IMG/VR virus record: IMGVR_UViG_3300030333_000036
Coordinates: 1-22,604 of that record
Length of the DNA stretch: 22,604 nt
From: a virus
Strand: one strand, 5' to 3'
The notes below the pieces were generated by a model. It made no database searches, was not told where the DNA came from, and saw only the letters and a program-made list of their open reading frames with translations. Position 1 is the first letter of the stretch. Each line of letters starts with the position of its first letter. The translations under genes were made by a program, and so were the position numbers. Positions 9,585-19,004 of the stretch are shown in pieces.

Positions 9585-9611
9585 CGAAAAAATTTGGCGA
9601 ATTTTTTTTCG
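9585..9611. terminator. Bidirectional-type hairpin terminator, copy 1
   Basis: CGAAAAAATT (9585-9594), loop TGGCG, then AATTTTTTTTCG (9600-9611) form a near-perfect stem rich in A/T, with T-runs in both orientations. It lies just beyond the 3' end of cpeT (minus strand). A near-identical element is at 22479-22505. The stem has few G-C pairs, so termination strength is uncertain. Confidence 0.6.
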
Positions 9612-11805: not shown

Positions 11806-14800
11806 TTAGGCAAACTTAGCGACACTGAAATTACTTTGTAAGTTGGCAGCATTTAATGATGCCTTAGCACCCATTAGACCTCGCATTCCTCCACCACCTG
11901 ACTTCAACCTTTCAACTGCGGATGCTGCAGCTGCAACGTTTGCTCTTACTGATGCGTTATGTGCTTCAACAGCAGCCATAGTTTCAGCAACAAGTCTCCT
12001 TGTTCTCTCTGTGATCTGCTCTCTTGCATATGATCTATCACTATATACCTTCTTAAGAGCATACGCTTCTTGTCTTTCTTGAGATTGATTATTACCCTGT
12101 TTCTGTTGTCCACCAGAGGGTGTGCCTAATATACTACCTGATGATGCATTACCTGATGATGCACCAGTCTGACCACCACCATAGTTAGTGCTAGATTGGA
12201 ACGCACTACCTCTTTTATTCTTTTGGTATGCTTTAGTAGAAGTTTCCTTTGTGCTAGGGAACATTGGGTTCTCCCCATTTGCTACACCTAAATCAGTGTT
12301 CTTCATGTAATCATTGAAGAACTTATTACCCTCAGTACTAAAGACTGTATCTCCAAATTTTATTTGTGATGAGTCGTCACCCTTATTGTATATTCCAGTG
12401 TTCTTAAACGTTGTAGAGTTCAACAGTGCCATTGTCTGAGGTTCAGAGAATCCCTGTCCTCCTAACATAGAAGTCATCCAATTAGTATCACTTGCTTTAA
12501 AGATCGCTGCTGATGCTTTATTAGATAGAGAAGGTGATAGTTGAGCGTCTGGGTTGAATGAACCTTGAATCTTACTAAGGATATCACCCATAGTTTGTGC
12601 ACCACCGAAGTTAGCACCTGCTCCTTGATCAATTACACCTGCTTGATTCATTATGGATCTAGCCATAATTGCCATCTGTTTTGGATCACCACCAGATGCC
12701 TGAGCTATGACAGTCTTCATTTGCTCTAGGTCACTTCCACTCAAACCAATGTTGCCTGACCCTGCAACCTGATTGTCACCGAAACCAAACTGGATCTTAT
12801 TTCTTACACCATGAGAACCTGGTGCCTTCTTATCACGACCAAAGATCCATTTACCCCACTTGTTACCAATGATAGAAGTTAATTTTAATCCTCTTCTATT
12901 ACCGTACGCTTGATCAGCAACCATCTGTAACTTAGCTGTCTTATCACCTTTACCGTGCCAACTGACATCAAACGCTAGGTTCTTAGAATATAAACCACCT
13001 CTACCTCTTCTTTGTTTACCAGATGGATCGTATCCTGATCTATTAGGAGGTCCTTTTCTCCATCTATTATTCTTAAAGTTTTTATGATTATAAACTGTGT
13101 ATCCTTGGTTCAAGAATCCACGACCTGCCTCTATTACTGCCTGTTGTCCACCACCTACAAGTTTTTGATCTGCACCTTGACCACCAGCTCCTCCTCCACC
13201 TACAGATGCACCGAGAACATTACCTAATGCTTGGTTCATTCCTCCACCATCTGCACCCATCATGGTTCCCATGATATTACCAAGAGGACCACCCATATTG
13301 TTTGCCATCTTGCCAAGGAAATCTCTACCAAGATGTCCAAGTCTTTGACCGAAGGTCATTCCCTCAGTGCCTGGTCCGAACATTGTCATGCCAAGACCAC
13401 CGAGAGTACTCATCCAGTTAGCTGCTTTGCTACCTGGTTTCATGAACTGACTTGCTATATTAATACCACCTTTGAGGATGTCCCCGAAGGTTGCCTTGCC
13501 ACCTTCACCACTACCTCCACCACCAAAGACAGTCTGTAATGTACCTGCAATATTACCTGCTTTACCACCAAATACATTACCTATTACGTTTGTAAGGAGT
13601 GGGGACTTTAAGACAGATCCCATTGTTGCACGACCATTCTTGTAGTCTATGCCCATTGATGCTCCCTTTAGCATCGCACCATAGGATGATCCGTTTGCTA
13701 CAGGTCCTATGCCACTAGTCCCTCCAAGACTAGTGTTCTTAAACATATTACCGATACCAGATTTGATACCGCTAAACATCTTACCTAAGAAGAATTGTTT
13801 GTCACTAAGTCGTGGCATGTCAAACCCAAGCTGCTTTGCTTGGATTAAGTTTGCTTCAGTAAGACCAGGTAATTGTCGTGTAGCAAAGTTATTAAATGGT
13901 ATAACAAAACTCTCACCAGTATTTTTCTTCGCTACATACTCAGTTCCATGACCGATAAACTCAGGACTACCACCACCAGGACTTGTAGACACAGGATAAC
14001 CTGAGTCAGGACCAGAGATCCAACCACCAGTAGCAAAACCAGGTAATACTTTTTTTAGTGGTGCCTGACGGTAACCACCTGTTGACATCTCTTCATCGGC
14101 TTCATCATCAGCACCCATCTGTTTGATCTTATTAGCACCCCAGAGAGTTGTGCCAACTGCAATGGTTGCACCTAATGCTTTACCTTTCCAACCACCAGGA
14201 AATCTTCCTCTTGTTTTTAATCCTTTAGAAAATCTAGTTAATGATCTATAGAATGTTGTTAGTACAAACCTAACATCTTTAATCAACTTAACAGGATTAG
14301 TTAACCATCTTATTCCTACAAAGATAGCCCCTAAGTTTACAAATGACCTAGCAAATCCAGTTAGTCGTTCCCACCATGTAGCATCATCCCGTAAAAGATC
14401 ATACAACCCGTCAACTATTCCTCCGATCCGTTTCTGTATAAAATTACTGATCCATTTAAACGCTTTGTAAATTGCTTCAATAGCATTGACTATCTTTTGT
14501 TGGTTCCTTTTATCCGACAACCATTCTAACGCAGGTTTTATGATTGCTAGTTTAATAAACCCACTAAGAATTTGTAGTAAACCCTTCAAGAAATTAGGTG
14601 CGTTCCTACCTACAAACTCATTAACAAATGATACGAACTTAGGTTTCTCTATCTTAGTATACTTGGGATCAAATGTATCTCTTAGTCTTTTCTTTTCGTC
14701 TTGTAATCTTTTTAGTTCTATCTTTTTTATATCAGCAACAACACCACCAATAGAATTAATACATGCTCCAAGATTATTATATGCTTCAATGCTCTTCATC

Positions 14801-14907
14801 TGATAAGATGCTGATGCTTTATCGGCAGCACCAGCCGCAGCACCCTTCGCAATATTTGGAGAGATTAACTTATAAACATTTATTTTGGTGTCTTTAGATA
14901 TCGCCAT
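11806..14907 (-). CDS. Giant tail protein 2, tape-measure-like with degenerate hydrolase-like regions, 1033 aa
   Basis: ATG at 14907-14905. Residues 1-60 (NVYKLISPN, INSIGGVVADIKKIE) and about 85-240 (hydrophobic helices with ERLTGFARSF) are similar to the neighbouring 1061-aa protein. A basic, glycine-rich linker follows, then PRLSDKQFFLGKMFSGIKS, again like the paralogue. Glycine- and methionine-rich helical repeats occupy about 380-580. Residues about 588-711 (GFLNQGYTVYNHKNF; LAFDVSWHG; GSHGVRNKIQFGFG) follow the layout of M15-type or similar peptidoglycan endopeptidases, but expected metal and catalytic histidines seem missing. Residues about 720-870 (QMKTVIAQASGGDPKQMAI, then MARSIMNQAG) follow a SleB-type wall-hydrolase outline, with the usual E replaced. 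The C-terminus is a basic coiled-coil-like helix. Late box AATAAATA is nearby. A tape-measure or hub role is inferred from context and size. Confidence 0.6.
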   Translation of the reverse strand: MAISKDTKINVYKLISPNIAKGAAAGAADKASASYQMKSIEAYNNLGACINSIGGVVADIKKIELKRLQDEKKRLRDTFDPKYTKIEKPKFVSFVNEFVGRNAPNFLKGLLQILSGFIKLAIIKPALEWLSDKRNQQKIVNAIEAIYKAFKWISNFIQKRIGGIVDGLYDLLRDDATWWERLTGFARSFVNLGAIFVGIRWLTNPVKLIKDVRFVLTTFYRSLTRFSKGLKTRGRFPGGWKGKALGATIAVGTTLWGANKIKQMGADDEADEEMSTGGYRQAPLKKVLPGFATGGWISGPDSGYPVSTSPGGGSPEFIGHGTEYVAKKNTGESFVIPFNNFATRQLPGLTEANLIQAKQLGFDMPRLSDKQFFLGKMFSGIKSGIGNMFKNTSLGGTSGIGPVANGSSYGAMLKGASMGIDYKNGRATMGSVLKSPLLTNVIGNVFGGKAGNIAGTLQTVFGGGGSGEGGKATFGDILKGGINIASQFMKPGSKAANWMSTLGGLGMTMFGPGTEGMTFGQRLGHLGRDFLGKMANNMGGPLGNIMGTMMGADGGGMNQALGNVLGASVGGGGAGGQGADQKLVGGGQQAVIEAGRGFLNQGYTVYNHKNFKNNRWRKGPPNRSGYDPSGKQRRGRGGLYSKNLAFDVSWHGKGDKTAKLQMVADQAYGNRRGLKLTSIIGNKWGKWIFGRDKKAPGSHGVRNKIQFGFGDNQVAGSGNIGLSGSDLEQMKTVIAQASGGDPKQMAIMARSIMNQAGVIDQGAGANFGGAQTMGDILSKIQGSFNPDAQLSPSLSNKASAAIFKASDTNWMTSMLGGQGFSEPQTMALLNSTTFKNTGIYNKGDDSSQIKFGDTVFSTEGNKFFNDYMKNTDLGVANGENPMFPSTKETSTKAYQKNKRGSAFQSSTNYGGGQTGASSGNASSGSILGTPSGGQQKQGNNQSQERQEAYALKKVYSDRSYAREQITERTRRLVAETMAAVEAHNASVRANVAAAASAVERLKSGGGGMRGLMGAKASLNAANLQSNFSVAKFA

Positions 14908-14912
14908 ATGTA

Positions 14913-14920
14913 TATTTATT
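14913..14920 (-). promoter_or_regulatory. Possible late promoter box AATAAATA upstream of the 1033-aa gene
   Basis: The minus strand reads AATAAATA overlapping the TAA stop of the 1061-aa gene (14921-14919). It is only five bases before the ATG, so an mRNA from it would have almost no leader. The motif is present; functionality is doubtful. Confidence 0.35.
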
Positions 14921-17900
14921 ATGCTTGAGCAGGTTGTGGCATTGGAACAGGTACCATCCTAGGTATAGGAACAGGTGTTTGAATCTCTACCAACTTCTCT
15001 AGTAACATAGGAACTGGTATGAACTCAAGTGATGACTGCATAGCATACTCTCTTGACATACCACCTTTCTTATTACTCATAGACTTTGCAGTTTGTGACA
15101 TGATACCAAGCACCTCTGGTTTGACACCTAATTCAGCTGCCATATTTCTTAGACCGTTGATGAGTCCACCAGCTCCACCACCTCCCATCATACCTGTGAT
15201 AGTTCTAAACAGTCCACCAAATCCCATACTGTCTGCAATGTTACCTATCAATCCCATTGGTGAAAAACCATGAGGACCAAAGGAATCTAAACCAAATAAC
15301 TGAGACAAACCTGGTACGTTAGCAACACCAGGTATCATACCAATGAGTCCACCTACGGCTGGGAACTTTTTCATGAACCCACCGAACTTATTAAGCATTC
15401 CTGATACACCTTCTGGTAGTATTGATCCAAGACCGCCCATCAGTCCACCTAATGCTCCACTAATACCTCCCTGCATGAACCCACCTAATGCTTTACCAAA
15501 TGGATTATTAGACATGAAGTTACTAAACTTGTCTGCCACACCACCAAAAGTACCAGGGAACATACCACCTAGAGCACCGATACCACCAGTAATTGCACCA
15601 AATATATCACCAGATGCAGCAGCACCTATAGCACGAACAGCACCTATAAATGGTGCAGCAGCAGGGAATACTATTGGGACAACAGTTCCTAAAAGTTGAC
15701 CTATAGGTGAACTAACTACACCTTTTACAACGTTAGTAACACCTTTAACTACACCACTAACAGCCTTTGTGATGCCTCTGAATATCTTACCAAAGAAGAA
15801 CTGCTTGGTGTTTAGTCGAGGTAACCTTCTTAATAATTTACCACCAGTTTCAAAACCAAATGGATTCCACCAACTCCTTTTCTTCTTTGCTTTATCTGTC
15901 TTCTTAGATCCAATACCAAAGGCACCCTCTGGCATTGTGTCTCCATATCTTTCGTTGTCTGACTCTACACCTTTATATTCTTCCTCAGGTACAAAAGGTT
16001 TTGTCTTATAGGAAGATCCAAAATCTATACCCTCTAATGGGTTATGTTTCTTACCATGCTTTCTTTCATATGGACTTACATATTCTTTCTTCTTCTTTTT
16101 AGGAGTGATACTAAATGATCCTTCTGGGAATGTATCACCATACCTTTCGTTGTCTGTTTCTACACCTTTGTATTCACTTTCTGGAACGAAAGGAGTAAAT
16201 TTATAGTCAAGGAAAGGATTTATATTTTTCTTTTGTATTGCATTGACCTGTCCAATAGGAGTTGTTACACCATCCTTTTTATAACCAATTATTCTACCGC
16301 GTCTATTCTTTATAGGAACTCCTCTACTATCACCCTCAACTTCCGAACCAGTAGTAGTTCCTGATGTACCAACAAGATTACCTTCACCATCAGTGCCATC
16401 ACCTGCGACACCATCCATTTTCTTACCAGTTTCAACCTTACCTTGTCCTGCATCTCCTGCTTCTGGGAAGAATGATTTGTGTAGTAATGGGAATGTGTTA
16501 CCAGTAAGGTTTGCCATCCAGAAGACGTTGGGTATTTCTTTACCCATCATCATGCCAAACGGACCAAGCATAGCCTTCATGGCTACCTTAGCACCTGCCC
16601 AGATCTTATTTCTAAATGGTGTTAACTTAGGGATCCATTTAGGAGGATCTTTAGGGAAGTCTGGTATCTTAAACTTAGGAATACCTTTATAGAATCTTGT
16701 CCATCCATTCTTTATCCAGCTCAACATCTTAGTGAACTGTCTGAACAGACCCATCATGTCATCTTTTAACTTCTGACCTGCTGCTTTCCAGCCACCACCT
16801 CTGAATCCAATGTATAATAACTCACCAACATATTCACCACCCATCATACCTATGAGTGATCCTATACCTGGTACTGGTATGAATGTACCTAATGCTCCAC
16901 CGACAGCTGAACCCAGTGTTTTAAATATTACTTTGTCCCAAGAATCACCATTTAGTATAGAAAATACGGCTGTTAAAAGTGAACCAAAGATAGGTATTCT
17001 ACCAAAGGTATTTTTAAATGCATTACTAAGAAGTTTTACATTATTTTTTCCAAGAAACTTTAAAGCACCACGACCAAACCCTCTGTTCAATCCTTTGCTT
17101 AAGATTTTACCTTTAGGTGCAGTAGTAGGTGAGAGACCTGATGTCTTAGGTGGCGGCTTAAATGCAGATGGATTTTTATTTGCTAATCTTTGTACTCTTT
17201 TAAGTGCTTGCTCTCTACTTAATCCGTTCTTAAGTGCGTCACGATATACTCTCTCACCATTCTTACCAAACTTTTTAAAGATAGGATTGTTACCTGTCTT
17301 TACTTTCTTACTAAAATCCTTGACTCTACTGTTGACTCTACTATTACTATTAGATGTGTTTTTATTGTTAGTCTTAGATTGTCTGTTTGGATTATAAAAA
17401 TCCAGATTCAACATACGAAGGATAGAATCCATCAATCCAAATGGATTTAACAACGCTTGTAGTCCTACTATCCCTAGTAGTAATGTTCCTAAACCTTTTA
17501 ACCTACCCCAAAAACTATTGTTACCATCAACTAATGCAGAGAATCCATCTAGTATTTTGGTTACACTACCCTTTGCAAATCCATATAACTTCTTGACTAC
17601 AAAACTTAATTTCTTTAAGAAGACTGCTATCTTTTTTATCTCTCCTGCATCTGACATCCATGTTAGGAGACCTTTTATAGCAAGTAGATTTACAAGACCT
17701 GCAACAAATTGCATTGCAGATAGTAATAGTCCCTGTACACCACCAAAGAGTGCCTTACCAAAACTTACAAGAGCACTCTCCTTTGGTTTCTTTATCTGTG
17801 ATTTCTTTATCTTACCAATACCTTTCCCCTTTAAGGCATTCTGTCTTTCAAACTCGTCCTCATTTCTTTGATCCCTTTCACGTTGTAATCTACGACGCTC

Positions 17901-18104
17901 AGTTACCTCCCTCATCTTATCAACTTTGATAGATGCAAGAGATATCTCATGAAGATCTTTTACTACAACACCAATACTATTGACAGTCTTCCCAAGACGA
18001 TTGACCGCTAAAAGATTAGTCCTAGGACCGTTAGAAGCAAGAGTCTTCTTACCACTTCCGCTAGGATTAACTAATTTGTAAGGGTCTATTTTTGGGTTAG
18101 CCAC
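14919..18104 (-). CDS. Giant tail protein 1, tape-measure candidate, 1061 aa
   Basis: GTG start at 18104-18102; this gene and the -1 frame following gp26 overlap by eight bases (GTGGCTAA). The first in-frame ATG is about 64 codons later, so GTG is preferred. Residues 1-60 (IDPYKLVNPSGSG; VNSIGVVVKDLHEI) start a charged coiled-coil-like region (MREVTERRRLQRERDQRNED). Strongly hydrophobic helices follow at about 115-230 (SFGKALFGGVQGLLLSAMQF) and again near 360-430. Residues about 637-665 and 703-731 are an internal repeat (FVPE-EYKGVE-DNERYGDT-PEG). Residues about 780-1000 are glycine-rich helices (GGLMGGLGSILPEG). The C-terminal 35 residues are a PVP-rich tail (PVPIPRMVPVPMPQPAQA). The position directly after gp26 and its frameshift extension is where tape-measure genes stand in many phages. 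It could instead be a hub scaffold equivalent to T4 gp29 or gp28. Confidence 0.6.
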   Translation of the reverse strand: MANPKIDPYKLVNPSGSGKKTLASNGPRTNLLAVNRLGKTVNSIGVVVKDLHEISLASIKVDKMREVTERRRLQRERDQRNEDEFERQNALKGKGIGKIKKSQIKKPKESALVSFGKALFGGVQGLLLSAMQFVAGLVNLLAIKGLLTWMSDAGEIKKIAVFLKKLSFVVKKLYGFAKGSVTKILDGFSALVDGNNSFWGRLKGLGTLLLGIVGLQALLNPFGLMDSILRMLNLDFYNPNRQSKTNNKNTSNSNSRVNSRVKDFSKKVKTGNNPIFKKFGKNGERVYRDALKNGLSREQALKRVQRLANKNPSAFKPPPKTSGLSPTTAPKGKILSKGLNRGFGRGALKFLGKNNVKLLSNAFKNTFGRIPIFGSLLTAVFSILNGDSWDKVIFKTLGSAVGGALGTFIPVPGIGSLIGMMGGEYVGELLYIGFRGGGWKAAGQKLKDDMMGLFRQFTKMLSWIKNGWTRFYKGIPKFKIPDFPKDPPKWIPKLTPFRNKIWAGAKVAMKAMLGPFGMMMGKEIPNVFWMANLTGNTFPLLHKSFFPEAGDAGQGKVETGKKMDGVAGDGTDGEGNLVGTSGTTTGSEVEGDSRGVPIKNRRGRIIGYKKDGVTTPIGQVNAIQKKNINPFLDYKFTPFVPESEYKGVETDNERYGDTFPEGSFSITPKKKKKEYVSPYERKHGKKHNPLEGIDFGSSYKTKPFVPEEEYKGVESDNERYGDTMPEGAFGIGSKKTDKAKKKRSWWNPFGFETGGKLLRRLPRLNTKQFFFGKIFRGITKAVSGVVKGVTNVVKGVVSSPIGQLLGTVVPIVFPAAAPFIGAVRAIGAAASGDIFGAITGGIGALGGMFPGTFGGVADKFSNFMSNNPFGKALGGFMQGGISGALGGLMGGLGSILPEGVSGMLNKFGGFMKKFPAVGGLIGMIPGVANVPGLSQLFGLDSFGPHGFSPMGLIGNIADSMGFGGLFRTITGMMGGGGAGGLINGLRNMAAELGVKPEVLGIMSQTAKSMSNKKGGMSREYAMQSSLEFIPVPMLLEKLVEIQTPVPIPRMVPVPMPQPAQA
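15908..16194 (-). repeat. Internal duplication in giant tail protein 1
   Basis: Two copies of a segment of about 28 residues, FVPE[SE]EYKGVE[TS]DNERYGDT-PEG-F-I, are encoded at about 16194-16105 and 15997-15908, separated by a lysine-rich linker. DNA similarity is also evident (shared ctttcgttgtctg on the plus strand), so it is a relatively recent duplication or kept by selection. Confidence 0.8.
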
Positions 18105-18330
18105 TTGCTTGTTGAGCTGCTTGTTGATCCTTCATTCGTTTCTCTTCTTCTCTTAAGAAGTCGATTAACATTGTGACATAGATTTCCTTCTCCCAAGGCA
18201 TAAGGTTTTCAATGTGTTCTATATGCCATTTATGATGATGTATTAATGCAAAGTTAGTATCATAATACTGTCTCAGTGTATTATGGAGAAGGGCTATCCG
18301 AAAAAAGATGCTAGACCTTCTAGTGTAACT
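18097..18330 (-). CDS. Start-less -1 frame ORF: frameshift extension of gp26 (67 codons)
   Basis: This minus-strand frame opens after a TGA at 18333-18331 and overlaps the end of gp26. It contains no ATG, GTG or TTG until an ATG deep inside (34 codons from the end) that lacks a Shine-Dalgarno. Yet it reads as a convincing protein: RIALLHNTLRQYYDTNFALI, HHHKWHIEHIENLMPWEKEI, then YVTMLIDFLREEEKRMKDQQ and AAQQASG. The 'HH..W...I..LMPWE' pattern with an acidic helix resembles phage tail-assembly chaperone C-terminal extensions. Its TAA stop (18099-18097) overlaps the GTG of the 1061-aa gene. Entry by -1 slipping at TTTTTTC (18306-18300) would give a fusion of 235 residues of gp26 plus these 67 (302 aa). 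It occupies the position of T4 gene 51, of which it may be the functional equivalent; that is an inference. Confidence 0.7.
   Translation of the reverse strand, partial: SYTRRSSIFFRIALLHNTLRQYYDTNFALIHHHKWHIEHIENLMPWEKEIYVTMLIDFLREEEKRMKDQQAAQQASG
18261..18285 (-). promoter_or_regulatory. Stem-loop downstream of slippery site
   Basis: CATAATAC and GTATTATG form a perfect 8-bp stem with a 9-base loop. The stem begins 14 bases 3' of the TTTTTTC on the minus-strand mRNA. This is a little farther than the usual 5-9 bases but consistent with a stimulatory element. The stem is mostly A-U, so it is of modest stability. Confidence 0.6.
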
Positions 18331-19004
18331 TCACTTTCAACTTTAGTGTTTGGGTTAGTAACCTTAAGTGTGTGAGTTAACTTAGGCATTGTCTCAAAGA
18401 ATTGTTGAACATCTTTAAACTGAGCTGAACTCATTGAGTCTAAAAATTCTAACACTTCTTTATGAGGCATGTTCTTACAGTCATGTACTTCTTCTGGTGT
18501 GGTGACACTCTTCACACAACTTGCTGCCATCTCAAAGATTTGATCTACATCTTGTCCGTCATTAACGAAGTTTGCTTTAACAAATGTATCAAGACTTGGG
18601 TAGTCCATAGTAATTAAGATCTCATCTGATATCTTAATCTCTCTGCTATGACCTTTAGTCTTCTTAACTTTGATAGAATCAAGAGGGATCTTAACTTCTA
18701 CCTGTGTTTCATTATCATCAGGGCAGGTCACACCTACATCTACACTCTCACCAACAGACTTGGTTCTGATCTGTAAGAATACAAATTCAATATCAAATGT
18801 TGGTAGTGCTTCTACATCTTTAATATCAGTGCAAGCTGCAATGATATCTTTGATAGCATTCACAATACTATCTTGGTTGCCAGTTTCAGTAGCAATTAAT
18901 AGAACTTTCTCTTCTTTGACAAGGAATGGTCTATAGTTTACAACTCTACCGTCAGACGGTAGTTTCATTTTAAATTTTGGGGTTACTAAGGTCGGTAATG
19001 CCAT
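18294..19004 (-). CDS. gp26: Baseplate hub/assembly protein gp26 (T4_baseplate family), 236 aa
   Basis: The T4 gp26 family (Pfam T4_baseplate, PF12322) contributes to hub assembly. The signature segment is YRPFLVKEEKVLLIATE at 24-40, after a short KMKLPSDGR strand. It is followed by AIKDIIAAC and LPTFDIEFVFLQIRTKSVGE (68-86), then a CPDD loop near 94-97 and the IKISDEILITMDYPSLDTF strands. The length is close to T4 gp26 (208 aa). The start is ATG 19004-19002 with a CTAAATA late box 23 bases upstream. The gene ends in TAG (18296-18294), but just before it stands the TTTTTTC slippery site, so a minor 302-aa fusion product is predicted. The family resembles gpG-type tail chaperones in its position before a giant tape-measure candidate. 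Confidence 0.9.
   Translation of the reverse strand: MALPTLVTPKFKMKLPSDGRVVNYRPFLVKEEKVLLIATETGNQDSIVNAIKDIIAACTDIKDVEALPTFDIEFVFLQIRTKSVGESVDVGVTCPDDNETQVEVKIPLDSIKVKKTKGHSREIKISDEILITMDYPSLDTFVKANFVNDGQDVDQIFEMAASCVKSVTTPEEVHDCKNMPHKEVLEFLDSMSSAQFKDVQQFFETMPKLTHTLKVTNPNTKVESEVTLEGLASFFG
18300..18306 (-). promoter_or_regulatory. Slippery heptamer T_TTT_TTC for -1 frameshift
   Basis: In the gp26 frame the codons are TCT TTT TTC GGA TAG, giving the canonical X_XXY_YYZ heptamer T_TTT_TTC three codons before the stop. After a -1 slip the next codon is CGG, in the frame of the start-less ORF. An SD-like AGAAGG (18321-18316) lies nine bases upstream, the spacing known to stimulate dnaX-type frameshifting. 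Confidence 0.75.

Follow-up and report, generated by a model that had tools for sequence, protein, structure and literature searches.

When a gene of a T4-like phage ends in two phenylalanine codons and is followed by a second open frame shifted by one base, the question is whether the second frame is a small gene of its own or a continuation of the first. The case studied here lies in a stretch of viral DNA of 22,604 nt (positions 1 to 22,604 of IMG/VR record IMGVR_UViG_3300030333_000036, hereafter the window), in which the first gene is a homologue of gp26. In lambda, and conserved among dsDNA phages, a -1 shift near the end of a short chaperone gene (gpG/gpGT) takes place before the tape-measure gene. 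The original prediction was that the window follows the same logic, and this is supported by the heptamer, by the open -1 frame and its coding character, and by the many lineages in which the frame has no alternative start. It is very likely, as far as the sequences can tell, that one locus gives rise to two tail assembly chaperones by -1 ribosomal frameshifting at T_TTT_TTC.

The end of gp26 in the window

On the minus strand, gp26 ends with GCA TCT TTT TTC GGA TAG (Table 1). The -1 frame is closed on its 5' side by a TGA at 18333-18331 and stays open to a TAA at 18099-18097, a run of 67 codons if the count begins at the heptamer's C. The first ATG, GTG or TTG in this frame is an ATG 34 residues before the end, and about 35 codons are thus without a usable start. 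The gp26 end, the heptamer, the length of the frame and both stop codons had been predicted exactly to the base, as had the lack of a start codon before that ATG. A further TTTTTTC is found at 9586-9592 (minus strand) in a gap between two ORFs, with no sign of a second frameshift there.

Table 1. Features of the gp26 locus in the window.
Feature	Position	Strand	Basis
gp26 homologue, 236 aa; proposed short tail assembly chaperone (TAC-N)	18294..19004	-	PF12322, phrog_150
Slippery heptamer T_TTT_TTC (TTTTTTC), in phase with gp26	18300..18306	-	sequence; conservation
gp26 stop codon TAG, proposed to be bypassed after the shift	18294..18296	-	sequence
-1 frame extension, 67 codons and TAA (proposed TAC-C)	18097..18300	-	phrog_634; coding pattern; T4 gp51 alignment
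SD-like AGAAGG, 9 nt 5' of the heptamer; possible stimulator	18316..18321	-	sequence
8-bp stem with 9-nt loop, 14 nt 3' of the heptamer; candidate stimulator	18261..18285	-	relatives L012, L014, L020
Next ORF, 1061 aa, GTG start; tape-measure candidate	14919..18104	-	long ORF; overlap; HTVC008M counterpart

The identity of gp26 is clear from profile searches, in which it matched PF12322 (T4_baseplate) with an E value of 8.9e-74 and 248 bits against a curated cut-off of 24.5, and phrog_150 (baseplate hub) with an E value of 4e-81. Its AlphaFold model is an alpha/beta protein (pLDDT about 86; 85.7) and a good match to T4-like gp26 proteins. A Foldseek comparison of the model with solved structures gave nothing significant, the HK97 tail assembly chaperone 2ob9 appearing only at E values of 0.7-1.5.

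Conservation of the heptamer and the -1 frame

Matches to gp26 were found by tblastn in 788 phage records and matches to the extension in 465, mainly phages of Synechococcus and Prochlorococcus, and the extension matches begin at the slippery Phe-Phe. From IMG/VR, searched with six queries, and from annotated records we gathered 209 loci in total, of which 189 were kept after setting the Ackermannviridae and T-even loci aside, and these were reduced to 106 representatives with gp26 identity below 90%. T_TTT_TT(C/T) stands in phase at the gp26 end in 187/189 loci, which were located through a gp26 match extending to the C-terminus and are therefore mildly selected for conserved ends, and in all 106 representatives. 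The exceptions are L100, where the reading frame ends early, probably because of an assembly error, and Vibrio D528. Since no in-phase heptamer occurs in the other 25,322 codons of the same genes, its presence at the gp26 end is more than chance; the sequences are related, so the contrast was drawn within the same genes and carries no P value.

Codon usage at the site is equally restricted. The first Phe codon is TTT in all 106 representatives and the second TTC in 102 or TTT in 4, while other Phe-Phe pairs in the same genes use TTT TTC in only 3 of 102 cases. A T always stands before them, supplied by a codon for Ser, Ala, Asn, Asp or Gly. Across 209 codon columns the median synonymous diversity is 0.494, whereas the two Phe columns have 0.0 and 0.073 and are alone in lying at 0.08 or less. 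Judged by these comparisons, the heptamer is conserved beyond the need of the protein, with both Phe codons and the T before them fixed.

The -1 frame has the substitution pattern of a coding frame. In moderately diverged pairs, differences at the three codon positions number 7886/4303/14491, and codon changes of a single base were silent in 8504 cases and replacing in 3492. The extension preserves a motif around HHKY-SLTEIENMMPWER and is modelled by AlphaFold as helices (pLDDT 84.5). By its pattern of change, the frame evolves as a protein under selection, in agreement with its description as convincing protein in the original prediction, and the proposed comparison with T4-like relatives found both the heptamer and the frame kept. 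No Pfam family was found for the window's own extension, and DUF6760 matched the extension weakly in three relatives (best E 0.023). There was no credible match among PDB sequences, where weak matches to gp41 resemble coiled-coil noise, and a Foldseek search of BFVD gave nothing significant.

Possible stimulators were sought on both sides of the heptamer. Relative to synonymous-codon shuffles, which take codons from a pooled set and control the base composition of single genomes only in part, the 63 nt after the heptamer folded with greater stability, the mean z being -1.72 (n=77, 48% below -2), and the following 63 nt, serving as a control block, did not, with a mean of -0.29 (8% below -2). 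The downstream hairpins differ by lineage, that of P-SSM2 having 11 bp and beginning 5 nt past the heptamer; one RNA structure common to all lineages was not found, and pair counts on the commonest diagonals were barely above independence. The stem in the window is a perfect 8 bp (CATAATAC/GTATTATG, 18285-18278 / 18268-18261) and is kept in the nearest relatives L012, L014 and L020, one C-G pair having been replaced by A-T in a compensatory manner, while the hairpins of relatives are stronger and nearer to the heptamer. The SD-like AGAAGG coincides with conserved codons for Glu and Gly, and in the codon-column comparison no conservation was demonstrated beyond these codons. Both elements are present where they had been predicted, but each is weak taken alone, because the motif is inseparable from the Glu-Gly coding and the downstream fold of the window has a z of only -1.1.

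The arrangement is not confined to cyanophages. It is found in Vibrio phage nt-1, Aeromonas phage CC2, Sinorhizobium phage phiM7, Stenotrophomonas phage YB07, Agrobacterium phage OLIVR5, Pseudomonas phages Milchi and Astolliot, phage C48C1 and pelagiphage HTVC008M. In CC2 (L092:3705-3870) the extension is present and unannotated.

Proposed frameshifting and its alternatives

In P-SSM4, P-SSM2, S-SSM5 and many other genomes, the extension is annotated as a separate small gp51 gene, which would be translated by reinitiation right after the gp26 stop, the poly-T resulting merely from the Phe-Phe ending. An ATG two codons past this stop is present in 43/106 representatives, and the annotations of P-SSM4 and S-SSM5 start gp51 there. 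However, the opening 18 codons of the -1 frame are free of ATG, GTG and TTG in 33/106 representatives, including the window, and the frame is never closed between the heptamer and the position of the ATG, where the remaining lineages mostly have Leu or Val, as would be expected if the residue is read through. Together with Phe codons and a preceding T that are fixed more than the protein requires, this makes a separate gene very unlikely. The two readings could also be combined, so that the fusion is made by frameshifting everywhere and a free extension is started in addition from the ATG in those lineages having one. The heptamer is conserved equally well whether or not a lineage has the ATG, which is consistent with such a combination, but P-SSM4 and S-SSM5 have no SD-like sequence at a proper distance before the ATG, and Met for Leu at this position is a conservative exchange, so we regard it as unlikely.

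Slippage of the RNA polymerase instead of the ribosome could give the shifted frame as well, since the site contains six T and in some relatives (HTVC008M) eight. Most members, however, have just six T and then C, and the strict phase with TTC and a hairpin-prone segment next is typical of tandem tRNA slippage, which renders transcriptional slippage extremely improbable. A single gene split by an indel, in a pseudogene or through an assembly error, has in its favour only the split itself, and its probability is negligible when isolates and metagenomes of independent origin share the arrangement at protein identities down to <40%. Sequencing error and pseudogene formation were ruled out by this conservation; a base error merging the frames, named in the original prediction as a possible refutation, is excluded by the independent assemblies L007-L020, which carry the site.

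If the ribosome shifts at T_TTT_TTC as proposed, most ribosomes would end at TAG and produce gp26, whereas some would slip back one base on the heptamer, bypass TAG and add the 67 residues. The long product would have 302 residues (TAC-NC) and end in the helical domain found at the end of T4 gp51. By inference from lambda gpG/gpGT, the two forms would work at a constant ratio to each other, loading the product of the tape-measure gene directly downstream, and T4 would attain the same short and long pair by genes 26 and 51.

The GTG start of the 1061-aa ORF behind the extension overlaps the extension stop by 8 nt (18097-18104, minus strand, GTGGCTAA). Exactly this overlap occurs in 43/106 representatives, and because the long ORF starts in some overlap in 85/106, translation of the extension and the downstream ORF is probably coupled. 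The site had been predicted to lie directly before a tape-measure candidate; a long overlapping ORF does adjoin it, but in PHROGs the ORF of the window had no tape-measure match, only families labelled 'endolysin' or unnamed. In HTVC008M, tape-measure families do match (E 8e-12) an ORF at this locus, lying after a single small ORF. Two long ORFs stand in tandem in the window (11806-14907 and 14919-18104, minus strand; 1033 and 1061 aa), and their related N-termini (BLASTP E 1e-16) suggest a duplicated tape-measure-like gene.

Proposed short and long chaperones in T4-like phages

The relation to T4 is apparent from the families that the two parts of the locus match. The window extension matches phrog_634 ('baseplate hub assembly catalyst') with an E value of 8.7e-30, and so does T4 gp51 over residues 147-246 (E 1.2e-23), while residues 3-248 of gp51 match the gp26 family phrog_150. 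T4 gp26 and T4 gp51 both belong to PF12322 and align with each other (E 2e-6), and the alignment of the fused window protein with T4 gp51 spans the junction (E 0.002). On these alignments T4 gp26 and gp51 are paralogues, gp51 consisting of a gp26-like domain and an extension-type domain. Because gp51 is built in this way, gp26 would be the short form and gp26 with the extension the long form, the counterpart of gp51; at the sequence level, short and long forms with a common N-terminal part are present, and T4 gp26 and gp51 are the same two forms. The suggestion that the extension may replace T4 gp51 is refined by the match to the gp51 family, the extension being the C-terminal domain of gp51 more than a replacement for it. 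Profile searches with the extension, as originally proposed, led to this family, but no lambda-type chaperone was among the profile and fold matches.

The window group shares with T4, whose gp26 and gp51 are hub assembly chaperones, the gp26 family and the same gp51 C-terminal domain, but T4 has two separate, divergently transcribed genes where the window group would have one gene and a frameshift, and in T4-type loci gp26 is not followed by an extension frame of this kind. T4 gp51 is needed for assembly yet absent from the particle (PMC3004832). In the Ackermannviridae (L093:3793-3962; L189-L203), gp26 is followed, after GAR ATT TTC ATT TAA, by 53 open codons in the -1 frame that look homologous, and an invariant, non-canonical ATTTTCATTTAA takes the place of T_TTT_TTC. 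Tentatively, the frameshifted gp26 could be ancestral for the whole T4-like group including the Ackermannviridae, with the two-gene state of T4 derived, and ribosomes that have shifted could also feed translation of the overlapping tape-measure gene, so that its synthesis would be linked to the ratio of the chaperones; we consider this possible rather than probable.

By analogy, the locus would resemble lambda in a shift close to the 3' end of the short gene, the extension in an overlapping frame and the position before the tape measure. The lambda slip site differs from T_TTT_TTC, and the window group has a contractile T4-like tail. Ahead of its tape-measure gene, Pakpunavirus Adele has a tail assembly chaperone with an invariant poly-T motif and a -1 frame that stays open (PMC12846349), in another phage family and with the motif GTTTTT. 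The mechanism has long been known in tailed phages, and it has probably been reported already for the T4-like group, since PMC10885494 and PMC12846349 both cite Vladimirov, Gautam and Davidson 2022 on the tail assembly chaperones of these phages. As cited in PMC12846349, that study (Virology 566:9) concerns TAC-N genes of T4-like phages that carry poly-T slippery sites, a likeness to the gp26 of the window, and as cited in PMC10885494, some T4-like phages do not frameshift but encode the fused long form as a gene separate from the short one. The original prediction knew of no such description for gp26; going by these citations, it has probably been described. The conservation evidence for the lineage of the window may be new.

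Sullivan et al. 2010 described gp51 of cyanophages and a vibriophage as lacking ~200 N-terminal residues while its C-terminus is similar, and gp51 was reported missing in Aeh1, a presumed relative of CC2 (PMC3037559). It is the same gene, read there as a short gene with frameshifting unmentioned. A frameshift in gp26 would be the reason why gp51 seemed truncated in the former and missing in the latter. For abundant ocean phages this corrects the annotation, as the 'tiny gp51' is in all likelihood no independent gene but the end of a protein made by frameshifting. By analogy, T4 gp26 and gp51, whose function was long unclear, could be assigned a specific task, the former as the short and the latter as the long tail assembly chaperone.
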